This document shows, in pieces, positions 13,141 through 49,323 of a stretch of 49,323 nt of DNA. The stretch's first letter is position 1, and each line of letters starts with the position of its first letter. The stretch comes from Salinicola halimionae (GTDB lineage: Bacteria; Pseudomonadota; Gammaproteobacteria; Pseudomonadales; Halomonadaceae). Under the pieces are notes generated by a model, which did not search any database, was not told the DNA's origin, and saw only the letters and a program-made list of their open reading frames with translations. The translations under genes and the position numbers were made by a program. The stretch is from NCBI RefSeq assembly GCF_003206065.1, contig NZ_PZJQ01000007.1, forward strand, positions 138,142-187,464. The letters are read 5' to 3'.

Positions 13141-14211
13141 CTACATTAGCGTCGGCGATGGCACCTCAAGCTCCTCTGCCAGTTGCCGGTAAGCTGCCAG
13201 GTTGGCGGCGTCCAACGGAATGCCCTCAGCATCACGGTGAGCCTGGCAACGCCATTCTCGGTCTCCCGGGGCAAGTATCTCCTCTCCTGCCAGCGCCGGC
13301 TGGGCGCGCAGGTCCTCGAGATAAGCGACGATGGACTTCTCGTAAATGGCCCGATCGGTGAAGGCTCCAGGATGCATGACTAGAAAGAAATGCCCGACGC
13401 CGCGCGGTGTCGACATGTCCGGGCTGTTCATCGGCAGCATGCGGAAGCCATGAACCATGCCTGTCAGGGTGGCGCTGAGCACCTCCACCATGCCGCCAAG
13501 ACCGGCGCCCTTGAAGCCGAAGTCGAGGCCGCCGAGCGGCAACAGCGAGGCGGCAGCCTGCGGGTCGGTGGTAAGCTCGCCGCGCAGGTCGACCACCACG
13601 TTAGCGGGCAACTCGCGGCCGATGGCGTTGTATTGCTTGACCCGGTTCCAGGGGATCGCGCTGGTCGCCATGTCGAGCAGATAAGGCTGGCTATCCGGTA
13701 CCGACGCAGCAAAGGCGATCGGGTTGGTGCCATGAAACGGCCTCTGCCCTCGATGCAAGCTGACCAATGCGTCGGCGTTGCAGAAGGACAGGCCGATGTA
13801 CCCTCGGCGCGCTGCCTCAAGAGCGTAGCAACCGGCCGCTCCGAAGTGCGACGAGTTGGCTACCGCCACGGCGCCGATACCGGCCGTTTCGGCTAGCTCG
13901 ATGGCATGCTCGATGGCGGTATAGCCCGCCTGGTGGCCGAAGCCGTCGTCGGCATCCAGGTAGCCCGTGGCCGGCATGCGCTGGGTAAACGCCATCGTTG
14001 GGCGCGCCTTGATTCGGCCGCCCTGCACGGCCTTGACGTAATGCGGTAACAGGCGCAGGCCATGGCTATCGGTGCCCATTCGCGAAGCAGTCACCAGGGC
14101 TCGGGTAACGGCGTCGGTGGCGGCAACATCGATGCCGCAGCATCGCAGCACTCCTCGCATGAAGGTTTCCAGTTCCGCCACGGCAACGCGAGCGACAGTG
14201 TCATTCGGCAT
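13141..14211 (-). CDS. Ldh_2-family NAD(P)-dependent 2-hydroxyacid dehydrogenase (YiaK-like)
   Basis: A 356-residue member of the malate/L-lactate/ureidoglycolate/2,3-diketogulonate dehydrogenase family, unrelated to Rossmann dehydrogenases. The active-site His50 is in MGTDSHGLRL, a second conserved His is in ANSSHFGAAG, and the cofactor-domain signature ATSAIPWNRVKQY is present. It follows dctM by 13 bases in the order dctP-dctQ-dctM-ldh. E. coli yiaK with the yiaMNO TRAP genes is a comparable pairing, so reduction of a keto or diketo aldonate is plausible. The exact substrate cannot be read from sequence. Confidence 0.88.
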   Translation of the reverse strand: MPNDTVARVAVAELETFMRGVLRCCGIDVAATDAVTRALVTASRMGTDSHGLRLLPHYVKAVQGGRIKARPTMAFTQRMPATGYLDADDGFGHQAGYTAIEHAIELAETAGIGAVAVANSSHFGAAGCYALEAARRGYIGLSFCNADALVSLHRGQRPFHGTNPIAFAASVPDSQPYLLDMATSAIPWNRVKQYNAIGRELPANVVVDLRGELTTDPQAAASLLPLGGLDFGFKGAGLGGMVEVLSATLTGMVHGFRMLPMNSPDMSTPRGVGHFFLVMHPGAFTDRAIYEKSIVAYLEDLRAQPALAGEEILAPGDREWRCQAHRDAEGIPLDAANLAAYRQLAEELEVPSPTLM

Positions 14212-14224
14212 GATTCGCCCCTCT

Positions 14225-15604
14225 TCAACGGTAGATGAGTTCGGGCAGCCACATGGACAGCGCTGGAATGAAGGTCACCAGCAGCAGCGCAATCAACAAT
14301 GGCACCAGGAATGGCAGGGTCCCGCGCATGCAGCGCTCGAAGGGAATGTTAGAGACTCGCGACAGCACGTAGATCACCATGCCTACCGGGGGCGTCAGCA
14401 GGCCGATCATCAGATTGAGAACCATGATCACGCCGAAGTGGACTGGATCGACACCCGCATTCACCGCCACCGGCAGCAATACCGGCACCAGAATAGTAAT
14501 TGCCGCGATGGTTTCCATGAAGCAGCCCACCACGATCAACACCAGGTTGATGAGTAGCAATACCATGATAGGGCTGTCGGCGAACGGGCCGAACAGCCCG
14601 ATGACCTGTTCGGTGACCTGGTTGCTGGTCAAGATCCAGGCGAAGATCGACGCGCCGGCAACGATCAGCAGAATGATCGCGGTGGTCTCGATGGTTTCCA
14701 GGCTGACCTGTACCAGCCGGCGCCAGGTCAGAATGCGATAGACCGCCATGCCCAGGAACAGCGCGTAGGCCGAGGCGGCAATCGCCGCCTCGGTCGGTGT
14801 GAACATGCCGCTGATGATGCCACCGACGATGATCACAGGCGTCAGCAGCGACAGGAATGCGCGGGCGAAGGTCACACCTAGCGTCTTTAAGACGAACGCG
14901 GCATCGCGCTGGTAGCCGCGCCGACGCGCCAGGATGGCGATCATGATCATCAGCACGACGCCCATCAGCAGCCCCGGGATCAGCCCGGCGACGAACAGCT
15001 GTCCCACCGAGGCGCCGGCCATCACGCCATAGATGACCATCGGCAGGCTGGGCGGGATGATCGGCCCGATGGTCGACGAGGCGGCCGTGATGCCGACCGC
15101 GAATTCCTCATCGTAGCCGGCATCGCGCATGGCCTTGATCTCGATCGTGCCCAGCCCGCCAGCATCGGCCACCGCCGCGCCCGACATACCCGAAAAGACG
15201 ATGCTCGCGCCGACGTTGACATGGCCCAATCCGCCACGCATCCAGCCCATCAGGGCGAGGGCGAAGTCGAAGATACGCTGGGTGATACCGCCGTTGTTCA
15301 TCAGGTTGCCGGCCAGGATGAAGAACGGAATCGCCAGCAGTGGAAAACTGTCCACGCCGCTGATCATGCGGTGGGCGATGACGATATCCGGCACCTGCCC
15401 GCTGAAATAGACATACAGCAGGCACGAGCCTGCCAGGCAGATGGCGATGGGCAGCCCTATCACCAGAAGGGTGAACAGCGAGGTGAACAGGAAGGCAATG
15501 TAATGGCCCTGGAGCGCCAGAATGATACAGCAGAGCACCGCAAGCGCGGCGATCACGGGCGCGATCAGCGAGCGACTACGGCGAAGGCTTAGCATGTTGG
15601 GCAT
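14225..15604 (-). CDS. TRAP transporter large permease (DctM family), second system
   Basis: A 459-residue polytopic membrane protein with DctM signatures: IPFFILAGNLMNNGGITQRIF, GMSGAAVADAGGLGTIEIKAM, STIGPIIPPSLPMVIYG and GMFTPTEAAIAASAYALF. It is slightly longer than usual because of an extra N-terminal hydrophobic stretch (about 1-35). An alternative start three codons later (15595) is possible. GGAAGAG lies upstream of the chosen ATG. It couples sodium flow to uptake of the ligand carried by the 16239-17240 receptor. Confidence 0.94.
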   Translation of the reverse strand: MPNMLSLRRSRSLIAPVIAALAVLCCIILALQGHYIAFLFTSLFTLLVIGLPIAICLAGSCLLYVYFSGQVPDIVIAHRMISGVDSFPLLAIPFFILAGNLMNNGGITQRIFDFALALMGWMRGGLGHVNVGASIVFSGMSGAAVADAGGLGTIEIKAMRDAGYDEEFAVGITAASSTIGPIIPPSLPMVIYGVMAGASVGQLFVAGLIPGLLMGVVLMIMIAILARRRGYQRDAAFVLKTLGVTFARAFLSLLTPVIIVGGIISGMFTPTEAAIAASAYALFLGMAVYRILTWRRLVQVSLETIETTAIILLIVAGASIFAWILTSNQVTEQVIGLFGPFADSPIMVLLLINLVLIVVGCFMETIAAITILVPVLLPVAVNAGVDPVHFGVIMVLNLMIGLLTPPVGMVIYVLSRVSNIPFERCMRGTLPFLVPLLIALLLVTFIPALSMWLPELIYR

Positions 15605-15623
15605 GGCAGGCTCTTCCTTATTG

Positions 15624-16166
15624 TTATCGATCGTCGGTCGAAATCAGCAGCTCACTGGTGCCTTCACGCCAATGGTGGACCGCCACCTGAACCGCGCGGA
15701 ACAGCATCAGCGCAAATCCAACCATCACCACGTAATAGAGATAGCTCTTGGGGACATCCACCGAGACCATCATCGCCTGCGTGCGTCCGGCCAGACCGTA
15801 AGTGATCCAGGCGGCAACGGCGAAAAACAAGATGCGGACAATATCGACCAGGGTCGACAGCAGGCGTCCTATCGCCGTTGGCATGTACCGATAGAAGAAG
15901 CCGACCATGATGTGTGAATTGTTGCGCACAGCCATCGCCCCCCCCAGGAAGCAGACCATAATCAACAGGTAGCGGGCGATTTCCTCGGTCCAGGCGATCG
16001 AGTCGCCGAGTACGTAACGGCTGAAAAATTGCAGGAAGACATCCAGCGCCAGCAGCCAGAAGACACCTAGCGTGATGTAATCCTCGATACGGTAATTGCG
16101 CGGGTCGAACTCCTCTTCCATGCCACTGAGCAGTTGTTCCTCGCGGGGCAGACGTTCTTCGGTCAT
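15624..16166 (-). CDS. TRAP transporter small permease (DctQ family), second system
   Basis: A 180-residue four-segment membrane protein. It has DctQ hallmarks FFSRYVLGDSIAWTEEIARYLLIMV and GGAMAVRNNSHIMVGFF, and a longer hydrophilic N-terminus than the other two DctQ proteins here. The start at 16166 (MTEERLPREE) is preferred over 16208 because GGAG lies seven bases upstream. It sits between the receptor gene and dctM. Confidence 0.92.
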   Translation of the reverse strand: MTEERLPREEQLLSGMEEEFDPRNYRIEDYITLGVFWLLALDVFLQFFSRYVLGDSIAWTEEIARYLLIMVCFLGGAMAVRNNSHIMVGFFYRYMPTAIGRLLSTLVDIVRILFFAVAAWITYGLAGRTQAMMVSVDVPKSYLYYVVMVGFALMLFRAVQVAVHHWREGTSELLISTDDR

Positions 16167-16238
16167 GGTCGGCTCCAGGCCCCACCGGCGGCTGGCCAGG
16201 TGGGGCAACGGGTTATGGTCAATTGCCGTAAAAGCCGA

Positions 16239-17240
16239 TTATTGGCCGAGTGCTTGCAAGCGGTCGTAAGTTGCCTTGTCCCAGGTTGCGGAATCACCGT
16301 TGAGATAGGGGATGACCGCTTCGCGGAACGGCTCGGTATCCACCTTGTTGACAGTGACTCCCTGGTCTTCGAACCAGGCCACTAAATCCTTCTCCGACTG
16401 GCGAACGTCCTGGGTGATCTTCTCGCCCGCTTCCGTATAGACATCACGGAAGATCTGCTTGTCCTCGTCCGAGAGGCGGTTCCACAGCGGCCCGCCGGCG
16501 ATAGTGATTAGCGAGTCGGTAATGTGGCCGGTGAGGTTGATGTAATCCTGCGTTTCATAGAACTTCTTGGCCTTGATGGTCAGCAACGGATTCTCCTGAG
16601 CATCGACCACGCCCTGTTGCAGGGCCAGATAGACTTCGGCAAAGGCGATCGGGGTCGGATTGGCACCAACGGCCTCGGGGAAAAGCATGTAAAGGGGGGC
16701 ATTGGGCGTACGGATCTTCAGTCCCTGCATGTCCTCGGGGGTGTTGATCGGCTTGTTCGACGTGACATGGCGCTTGCCGTAGTAGTTCATGGCCAGCGGT
16801 ACGTTGCCGGTTGCATCCTCGTACCCCTTGGCGATCTCCTTGAATAGATCGCTGTCGGCGTAAGCCTGCCAGTGATCGAAATCCCGGAACATGTAGGGAG
16901 CACCGGCGATGCCGATCGGTCCGTAGGAGCGGGCGGCAAACTGATTGCCGGTGTAGATCAAATCGACGGTACCCAACGATAGGGCTTCGTTGATATCCGC
17001 TTCCTTGCCCAGCGATGAAGCGGGATACACTTCGACGCTATAGCGTCCATCGGTGCGTTTCTCGATCTCATCGGCAGCCCACAGCGCCCATTTTTGGTAG
17101 GGCGTCGAGGCTTCATAGACGTGAGCGAACTTGAGCGTCTCCTGGGCCTGGACCATGCCGCAGACAGTGATCCCGGCCAGCAGCAGTGCTGTCGAGGCCC
17201 AGCGATTGAGCAGCTTGGAGCTGGTGTGCGTATTACCCAT
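16239..17240 (-). CDS. TRAP transporter substrate-binding protein (DctP family), second system
   Basis: A 333-residue periplasmic receptor with a signal peptide of about 32 residues ending in VQAQ. ETLKFAHVYEASTPYQKWALWAADEIEKR is the mature N-terminus, and MQGLKIRTPNAPLYM carries the carboxylate-binding Arg. GVVDAQENPLLTI is a further family signature. The sequence looks most like sialic acid and diketogulonate-type receptors (SiaP/YiaO). GGAGAA precedes the ATG. It is the first gene of the minus-strand operon and is divergent from the DgoR-like regulator at 17548. Confidence 0.93.
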   Translation of the reverse strand: MGNTHTSSKLLNRWASTALLLAGITVCGMVQAQETLKFAHVYEASTPYQKWALWAADEIEKRTDGRYSVEVYPASSLGKEADINEALSLGTVDLIYTGNQFAARSYGPIGIAGAPYMFRDFDHWQAYADSDLFKEIAKGYEDATGNVPLAMNYYGKRHVTSNKPINTPEDMQGLKIRTPNAPLYMLFPEAVGANPTPIAFAEVYLALQQGVVDAQENPLLTIKAKKFYETQDYINLTGHITDSLITIAGGPLWNRLSDEDKQIFRDVYTEAGEKITQDVRQSEKDLVAWFEDQGVTVNKVDTEPFREAVIPYLNGDSATWDKATYDRLQALGQ

Positions 17241-17547
17241 CTTGTTGTTCTCCTTATCGGACAGGGCAGGCGTAGCGCCTGTTGCAGCAAGCCTGGATGG
17301 CTGAATGTATACGTGTCATACCATCATAAGAAAATCTAGCCACTGCCACACCGCGCCGCAATGCCGTGGGTATTATCCTCTGGTCGTAGATGCCTCGAGT
17401 TTTTTGAATGAATACCCAACTACGACCATGGCCGTATGTCGACCTTTGTCGGTCGCAAAGCGGGTAACTGGGTGGGTAAGATGGAGTTGAGATAGCCAAT
17501 GTTGACCATACGGCTTAACCGACTTCGACTGCCGAGAACCGATTTTC
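17241..17547. promoter_or_regulatory. Divergent control region with interleaved inverted repeats
   Basis: This gap separates the TRAP-2 receptor gene from the GntR regulator. It contains GTAT-N7-ATAC (17307-17321), GGGTATT (17368-17374) pairing with AATACCC (17411-17417), TGGTCGTAG (17381-17389) pairing with CTACGACCA (17420-17428), and GCCGTATG (17431-17438) pairing with CATACGGC (17507-17514). The arms of the second and third pairs cross and are not nested, as expected for several overlapping dyad operators serving two divergent promoters. No small gene is evident here. Confidence 0.5.
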
Positions 17548-45148: not shown

Positions 45149-45835
45149 ATGTCCATTTCCGCAAAAGTCAGCGCACTCAACGAAGATGTTGCTGTAGCAC
45201 CCGCTAATGCTATCGGTATTGACGGCACAATCGCTATCAACCAACCGGGAAAAGTGCTGCTGAGTCTGTCACCGGACGACGTTCAGGTGCTACAGCGAGA
45301 CGGAAATGACCTGCTGATCCAAACCGCGGACGGCCAGTTTATTCGCATCGAGAACTTCTACGGCAGCAACGAAGCGGCCGCGAGCCAACTTTATTTGACC
45401 GATGAGAATCAGGAGCTGATCTGGGCAGACCTTGGCTCAGCAAGTAGCGATAGCTTTCTCATCGCCGATTACGTGTCCCAAGGTGAGTTTGGTGTCTTCG
45501 CACCGGCCACCATGGCTGGCGAGAATGCCGGCGCCGGAATCACCCCGCTCGGCTGGGCCGCCATCGGCGGTGGGGCGCTGGCTGCCGGTGCCCTGGCCGC
45601 TGGTGGTGGCGGTGGTGGCGGAAACGACGGTGATGACACACCACCGGACGATGGAGAGGACGGCGAAGGCGATACGACACCCCCCCGATGCGCCCACAGT
45701 CAATCCTTCCAACGGAGAAACCATCAGCGGCGGAGCCGAACCCGGCAGCACGGTCATCATCACCGATGGCGACGGGAGCCCGATCGGCGAGACCACGACC
45801 GACGACGATGGCAACTGGACGTTGACGCCCGATGA
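45149..45835 (+). CDS. N-terminal module of a giant BapA-like adhesin, ended by a frameshift
   Basis: As sequenced this frame gives 228 residues. Residues 1-120 form a BapA prefix-like domain (VLLSLSPDDVQVLQRDGNDLLIQ, then FIRIENFYG and LIWADLG). Next comes a small hydrophobic, Ala/Gly-rich segment (135-158) and an acidic linker ending DTTPP at 179. From residue 180 the sequence becomes Arg/His-rich and stops at 45835. The cause is the seven-C run at 45680-45686; with six C the frame continues into the Ig-like repeats. GGGGGAA lies six bases before the ATG. By family, this domain is the cell-proximal end of type I-secreted biofilm adhesins. Confidence 0.85.
   Translation: MSISAKVSALNEDVAVAPANAIGIDGTIAINQPGKVLLSLSPDDVQVLQRDGNDLLIQTADGQFIRIENFYGSNEAAASQLYLTDENQELIWADLGSASSDSFLIADYVSQGEFGVFAPATMAGENAGAGITPLGWAAIGGGALAAGALAAGGGGGGGNDGDDTPPDDGEDGEGDTTPPRCAHSQSFQRRNHQRRSRTRQHGHHHRWRREPDRRDHDRRRWQLDVDAR
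45680..45686 (+). other. Seven-cytosine tract causing +1 frameshift
   Basis: GAT-ACG-ACA is followed by seven C. Upstream codons begin at positions equal to 2 mod 3, and the repeat-coding frame after the tract begins at 0 mod 3 (GAT at 45687). One extra C explains the shift exactly. It may be a slippage mutation, a phase-variation site or a sequencing error. Confidence 0.9.
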
Positions 45836-48800: not shown

Positions 48801-49323
48801 CCCTCGCCTGGACCCATCGACGATGGAGAAACGACCAACGACGTAACGCCCACGTTGATCGGTAGCGCCGAAGCCAATGCCATCGTCACGGTCTACGCCG
48901 ATGGCCGAGCGCTAGGCACCACATCGGCCGACGACAACGGCGACTGGCAGTTCGCAACCGACGAGGAGGATCAATTGTTTGGCGGTGAAACAGTCTTCAC
49001 TGCCACCGCAACCGATGTTGCTGGCAACGTTTCCGCCACCAGCCCGACGTTTACGCTGACCTTTGACACGACCGCTCCTGCAGCGCCCGTGATCGATCCC
49101 ACCGACGGCGACGAGATCACCGGTACCGCCGAGCCCGGCAGCACGGTCACGTTGACCGATGGCGATGACAACGCGATTGGTACCGTGACGGCTGATCCGG
49201 ATGACGGCAGTTGGTCGTTCACGCCAGACGAGCCGCTACCCGATGGCACAGAGGTCAATGCCACCGCGACCGATGCCAGCGGCAATACCAGCCCTGAAGC
49301 CACTGTCACGGTCGATGCCACAG
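45687..49323 (+). CDS. Giant adhesin, Ig-like repeat region (partial, runs off window)
   Basis: After the C tract the frame starting DAPTVNPSNGETISGG stays open for 1212 codons to the window end. It encodes about 13 tandem bacterial Ig-like modules of roughly 80-105 residues. Typical elements are GTAEPGSTVTLTDGDG, DDNGNWSF, PLPDGTEVNATATDAAGN and DTTAPDAPVI linkers. The composition is strongly acidic (Asp, Thr, Gly), as in calcium-stabilised, halophile-type BapA/LapA adhesins that extend from the cell surface. There is no start codon of its own with a ribosome site, so it belongs to the 45149 gene. The C-terminal secretion signal and type I secretion genes should lie downstream of the window. 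Confidence 0.88.
46197..46961 (+). repeat. Three near-identical 255-bp tandem repeats
   Basis: Units start at 46197, 46452 and 46707, each 255 bp (85 codons, one Ig-like module beginning APTDVTVADDG). They differ at only a few positions, for example DAVGNESDP against DAVGNESDT and DDAGNESDP. The other modules in this gene are much more divergent, so these three arose by recent duplication or are kept alike by gene conversion. Confidence 0.95.

Follow-up and report, generated by a model that had tools for sequence, protein, structure and literature searches.

A frame break at a seven-C tract in the gene for a giant BapA-like adhesin of Salinicola halimionae

The gene for a giant BapA-like adhesin in Salinicola halimionae loses its reading frame at a tract of seven C. 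We consider the most probable cause, with a little more than even confidence, to be a chance slip of recent date in a C tract that is itself incidental. The adhesin would then be OFF in the sequenced clone, with reversion a rare event. The analysis covers a window of DNA, that is, the whole stretch of 49323 bases under study, which forms the final part of contig C9 in a genome of 11 contigs and 3.99 Mb. Table 1 lists the features of the adhesin gene within this window.

The favored mechanism is a one-base slip in a short C tract within the low-complexity linker that separates the BapA_N prefix from the Ig array, by which the frame would have been lost either in the isolate or in the sequenced clone. 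Translation would then halt at 45835 to give a 228-aa fragment that lacks the Ig repeats, the RTX repeats and the secretion target, and such a fragment should remain intracellular. Silencing is expected because the secretion target is C-terminal and lies past the break. Judged from the sequence, it is likely that no adhesin reaches the surface and that the fragment is not exported. A back-slip could restore the frame, presumably at a low rate, and the tract itself would be incidental, made of Pro-Pro codons in a GC-rich linker and not a kept contingency element.

Table 1. Features of the adhesin gene in the window
Feature	Positions	Strand	Evidence
Adhesin gene 5' part: BapA_N prefix domain, hydrophobic/Gly-rich stretch, acidic Pro-containing linker (177 codons)	45149..45679	+	PF22783; NF033677; homologues in 12/18 Salinicola genomes; alignment
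C7 tract, reading frame lost here	45680..45686	+	Direct read; homology; codon usage
Tail of the 228-aa ORF, out of frame, to stop	45687..45835	+	ORF translation; alignment of relatives
Adhesin Ig-like repeat part, other frame, ends at contig edge; 3' part on contig C7, locus L071	45687..49322	+	Big_6/Big_13; contig end

The adhesin gene and its frame break

Inspection of the window sequence places seven C at 45680-45686. An ATG open reading frame of 228 aa (45149-45835, plus strand) runs into this tract in one frame and meets its stop at 45835. A second frame, which encodes the Ig repeats, stays open between 45432 and 49322, where the window has its last codon, and 1212 of its codons follow the tract. 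The BapA prefix domain PF22783 scores 60.4 bits (cut-off 27) over residues 27-100 of the 228-aa ORF, and the BapA prefix profile NF033677 scores 45.2 bits, above its cut-off, within the first 177 codons. Profile searches of the 1212 codons downstream of the tract reveal an Ig-like array, with Big_6 matched in 11 stretches and Big_13 in 8. A relative with a single open frame (G014) matches the window in one frame to 45547 and in the other frame from 45684. In the database the nearest protein is P0002 (192 aa, encoded on a 1231-base contig), with 71% identity across 79% of the query; it aligns as far as the tract and then onward in a single frame. Two further proteins (P0003 and P0004) also pass the tract position in a single frame, and P0005 stops just short of it. 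The switch of frame is also visible by codon usage. Taken by alignment and codon usage, the break sits within the C7 tract or a few bases away.

The original prediction had placed a giant BapA-like adhesin out of frame at the seven-C run 45680..45686. The gene is confirmed by the prefix profile, the Ig array and the single frames of relatives, and the coordinates are exact, with direct reading, homology and codon usage in agreement. The accompanying description of two intact frames out of phase was right as to the loss of phase but not as to completeness, given that the 1212-codon frame ends at 49322 because contig C9 ends there.

With the C-terminus of the G008 adhesin as query, the 3' end of the gene was found outside the window, at the end of contig C7, where 1038 codons are open up to the contig edge. 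Contigs C9 and C7 appear to carry the two ends of one gene, because relatives have a single unbroken gene. No stop codon interrupts the 1212 + 1038 visible adhesin codons, the middle of the gene being unassembled. The adhesin spans 5241 (G008), 3572 (G003) and 3237 (G010) codons where its frame is unbroken. The 3' part carries RTX repeats (PF00353) and a type I secretion system (T1SS) target (TIGR03661, 63.4 bits, cut-off 17.6). Beyond it lie genes for TolC (485 aa), an ABC protein (734 aa) and HlyD (395 aa), all open, and further out there are matches to GreB-like and EAL-domain genes (named after G010 proteins). By profile search the adaptor is a type I HlyD, and the ABC protein belongs to the LssB-type T1SS permeases (TIGR03375, 860.6 bits, cut-off 693.1). 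TolC scores 141.7 bits with TIGR01844, under the cut-off of 225.15, and is above the Pfam OEP cut-off. Relatives with an unbroken adhesin have homologues of the same secretion genes beyond the gene. On this content the locus is a putative type I-secreted giant adhesin of the BapA/SiiE kind, with its only visible lesion at the C7 tract. Among the relatives, TolC of G010 (L060, 12251-13689, plus strand) seems split over two overlapping frames near the 5' end, and the G010 TolC query is matched by homologues starting no earlier than residue 84, or at residue 47 in a different frame.

Two readings would allow the region past the break to be translated all the same. The first is a split gene, with the Ig/RTX part beginning translation at an internal codon and being exported with no prefix domain attached. 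The Ig frame does offer ATG, GTG and TTG codons upstream of the tract, together with a TTG at 45822, near the stop of the first ORF, and the secretion target lies at the far end of the gene. However, no ribosome-binding site is shown for the candidate internal starts, no promoter-like site is found on the plus strand between 44400 and 46000, and 0/30 family loci are so organized; we regard such an arrangement as barely credible. The second is +1 ribosomal frameshifting, either leaky or programmed, at the Pro codons within the tract, which would yield some full-length adhesin. In the 0 frame the tract reads CCC CCC CGA, which gives a CCC-C context, and a study in E. coli describes CCC-C as prone to +1 shifts, up to 1% beside the start codon (PMC4519876). 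CGA accounts for 11.9% of Arg codons in 24 window genes. Frameshifting is nevertheless very improbable, in that the high rate applies to the second codon, with other positions described in the same study as less prone (PMC4519876), and among 30 loci every read-through uses one frame and none is open by such a shift.

Genome-wide controls and constraint beyond the break

Were the homopolymer simply missequenced or misassembled at this one place, the gene would be open in the living strain. Homopolymers are the classic site of such errors, the adhesin gene is otherwise open and constrained, and the contig breaks within this repetitive gene, so that local assembly is hard. The contig break is, however, more than 3 kb away from the tract, and two controls bear on the accuracy of the assembly. 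C/G runs of this length are in themselves not uncommon, with 121 overlapping C7 or G7 7-mers across the 3.99 Mb genome, and 84 distinct tracts of 7-9 bases, corresponding to 103/121 of these 7-mers, were classified by codon-usage score in 79 stretches and the window. Among the 46 coding C/G tracts of at least 7 bases, 45 are in frame (36 of length 7 and 9 of length 8), and the single same-strand frame switch is that of the adhesin. The 38 tracts outside the 46 comprise 37 that are weak or intergenic (score threshold 0.10) and 1 strand change. One C7 tract (L124) has best codon-usage frames that differ on its two sides, with one side at 0.095 (< 0.10), and may represent a second shifted gene. 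In the second control, 36 chosen window genes were compared with the syntenic G008 stretch. All 31 genes with a counterpart are in a single frame over 93-100% of their length; 4 have no G008 counterpart and 1 is the adhesin 5' part.

Because 45/46 tracts and 31/31 genes are in frame, the adhesin break is probably a single event and not the sign of a general fault, and general homopolymer error was rejected as unlikely. The assembly error raised as an alternative in the original prediction is disfavored by these controls. An isolated error is unlikely but conceivable, ranking second to a recent slip in likelihood, and a true switch, as yet unproven, is less likely than either. In one assembled sequence a local error looks the same as a fixed allele or a mixed culture. 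Elsewhere in the window, the DctQ gene (15624-16208) has an open frame and contains a C8 run at 15938-15945, longer than that of the adhesin. The 4 genes with no G008 counterpart form the block 13141-17240, which holds Ldh_2 and the TRAP-transporter genes DctM, DctQ and DctP and is absent from the otherwise colinear G008 stretch.

The codons past the break give no sign of relaxed constraint. For the first Ig domain after the tract (85 codons), dN/dS against three relatives is 0.12-0.19, and among those relatives, which have open frames, it is 0.08-0.14. Over 576 codons colinear with G014 the value is 0.147, and over the C-terminal 300 codons it is 0.09-0.13, compared with 0.13-0.15 between relatives. 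All of these are small pairwise estimates at high synonymous divergence, in which a modest recent relaxation would escape notice. Low dN/dS and the lack of stops together indicate that the break is recent, reversible or not real. An old pseudogene was rejected for the visible parts, where the 3' frames and secretion genes are open and dN/dS is low.

Returning to the favored slip, we infer that the change was recent because the visible downstream parts are open and still constrained. MutS (1187 bits) and MutL (618 bits) are open and above cut-off, and slippage at C7 should therefore be rare. A mutator strain was rejected, as both proteins are open and over cut-off.

The linker and its tract in related genomes

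The BapA prefix domain is present in 12/18 Salinicola genomes, including the one under study (G000). The frame is open through the linker in nine of the twelve (G002, G003, G008, G009, G010, G011, G014, G015 and G016) and broken in three (G000, G001 and G017). Among the nine open genomes the linker contains C7 in G009 and C6 in G016, with no run of at least 6 in the other seven. Where the C7 tract stands, G014 and G008 read in the same frame through codons that form no homopolymer. A scan of the linker at 30 family loci (nt 380-800 from match start) finds C runs of at least 7 in 3/30, which are the loci of 3/12 Salinicola genomes (G000, G001 and G009); G080 has a G7 and is open. Broken frames are found at 2/3 loci with such a C tract versus 1/27 others, with a nominal Fisher p of 0.02, which becomes 0.04 when G080 joins the tract loci on account of its G7, values that ignore the shared descent of the close relatives G001 and G009.

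Inspection of these two relatives reveals a difference in tract length. The C7 of G009 is in frame, and G001, with C8 at the homologous position and a C9 shortly before it, is out of frame. This difference points to slippage in the linker and hints that it has occurred repeatedly, which is more than chance alone would suggest and counts against a pure accident. In G001, however, the adhesin C-terminus was not found, and of TolC there remains just the part from about residue 306 onward, in the numbering of the G010 protein. The G001 tracts may have drifted once the gene was dead, because the adhesin 3' part and most of TolC are deleted. A large deletion at L050 (about 15279-17355, minus strand) joins the adhesin prefix and a short Ig remnant to the last quarter of TolC. 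In G017 an indel within the prefix domain breaks the frame, away from any run of at least 6 in nt 380-800. Later adhesin parts of G017 (L012/L057) lie in several frames, by decay or sequencing error, in a single-contig genome.

The original prediction had taken the tract for an ideal slipped-strand on/off switch of biofilm or surface attachment. Read as an evolved contingency switch, the tract would be maintained by selection, and slipped-strand mispairing in it would flip the adhesin between on and off frequently. The placement of the tract between prefix and repeats suits such a device, as do the open and constrained gene beyond it, the excess of broken frames among loci with C tracts and the G009/G001 length difference. 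In a Bordetella study, moreover, a C7/C8 difference in the fimX promoter correlates with transcript level (PMC1891110). Set against this, the tract is not kept: most relatives retain the gene without it, and the tracts of G000 and G009 differ in codon phase and context. The G001 tracts may be drift after death, the p values take no account of descent, and MutS and MutL are intact. C/G runs of at least 7 are also fewer in the window than a dinucleotide model expects (2 versus 5.7). The between-species comparison of tract length, with ordinary codons in the same frame in G014 and G008, went against the prediction, and the claim of an evolved switch is not upheld, although the association of tracts with broken frames speaks partly for it. 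We judge a maintained switch to be doubtful. A further reading, more improbable than the maintained switch, treats the acidic, proline-bearing linker of the BapA-like adhesins of Salinicola as a recurrent slippage hot spot, with C tracts in more than one lineage, an adhesin that is heritably ON or OFF at low frequency in an environmental halophile, and an OFF state made leaky by weak CCC-C +1 shifts.

The adhesin prefix shares 63-74% protein identity with G008, and the flanking window genes (2609-44428) share 86-99%. The adhesin may be a fast-diverging or exchanged locus within a conserved neighborhood. Upstream of the adhesin, G014 shows no similarity to the window. In searches with the long proteins, the best 120 of 2566 matches and the best 120 of 257 were filled by Pseudomonas and Enterobacter Ig proteins. 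Four other genomes (G054, G061, G091 and G119) have 4-6 BapA prefix matches each, and one other genus of the family thus seems to carry several such adhesin genes in a single genome.

If the tract does switch, Salinicola would offer a case of heritable on/off surface attachment, via a type I-secreted giant adhesin, in a halophile that is not a pathogen. If it does not, the locus would show that a short C run in a linker is able to silence a costly surface protein. It would also warn against equating each homopolymer frameshift with phase variation, this being the only shifted tract among the coding C/G tracts of at least 7 bases classified here.

Comparison with known adhesins and phase-variable systems

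SiiE, BapA and LapG serve as models for adhesins of this type. The Salinicola gene shares with BapA/SiiE-type giant adhesins the BapA prefix domain, the long Ig-like array, and the C-terminal RTX repeats and T1SS target, with TolC/ABC/HlyD genes adjoining the 3' end. It differs in that its frame is broken between prefix and repeats and in that its host is an environmental halophile, and it scores under the full-length cut-offs of the equivalogs SiiEA and Blp2. A search for the LapG protease (Peptidase_C93, PF06035) gave no match in G000, and the profile matched 1/14 control genomes. LapA-type release by LapG was rejected on the absence of Peptidase_C93 from G000 in this search.

Among the open-licence matches listed for giant adhesins, type I secretion and phase variation, no title describes tract switching of a BapA-like adhesin, an absence that proves little. 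The closest parallels are the Bordetella genes fimX, bapC, tcfA and BP3651, where, in PMC1891110, a one-base change in a C/G tract likewise affects a surface-associated gene; bapA is one row in the tract table of that study. The Bordetella variants in tract length occur among strains and, for three tracts, within cultures, whereas the Salinicola break is known from one genome. For BP3651, within-culture variation is reported only in alleles longer than C8 (PMC1891110).

Poly-C tracts are, according to a further study, generally under-represented in prokaryotic coding genes, and poly-C of 7-8 bases is over-represented in 11/99 genomes (PMC2831843). Mutation accumulation in P. aeruginosa resembles the Salinicola case in that one-base indels concentrate in G:C runs, mainly of 5-7 bases. 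That study gives 8 indels in 34 wild-type lines, 1 of them in a homopolymer, and 108/108 indels in single-base runs in mismatch-repair mutants, with a rate plateau at 7 bases (PMC4702332). Given this plateau, a C7 tract is long enough to slip, which counts against a purely incidental tract. The authors of that study regard such runs as possible switches in mutators (PMC4702332), which would favor a switch should repair ever fail. The concentration of P. aeruginosa indels in runs was seen in mismatch-repair mutants, in contrast to Salinicola, where MutS and MutL are intact.
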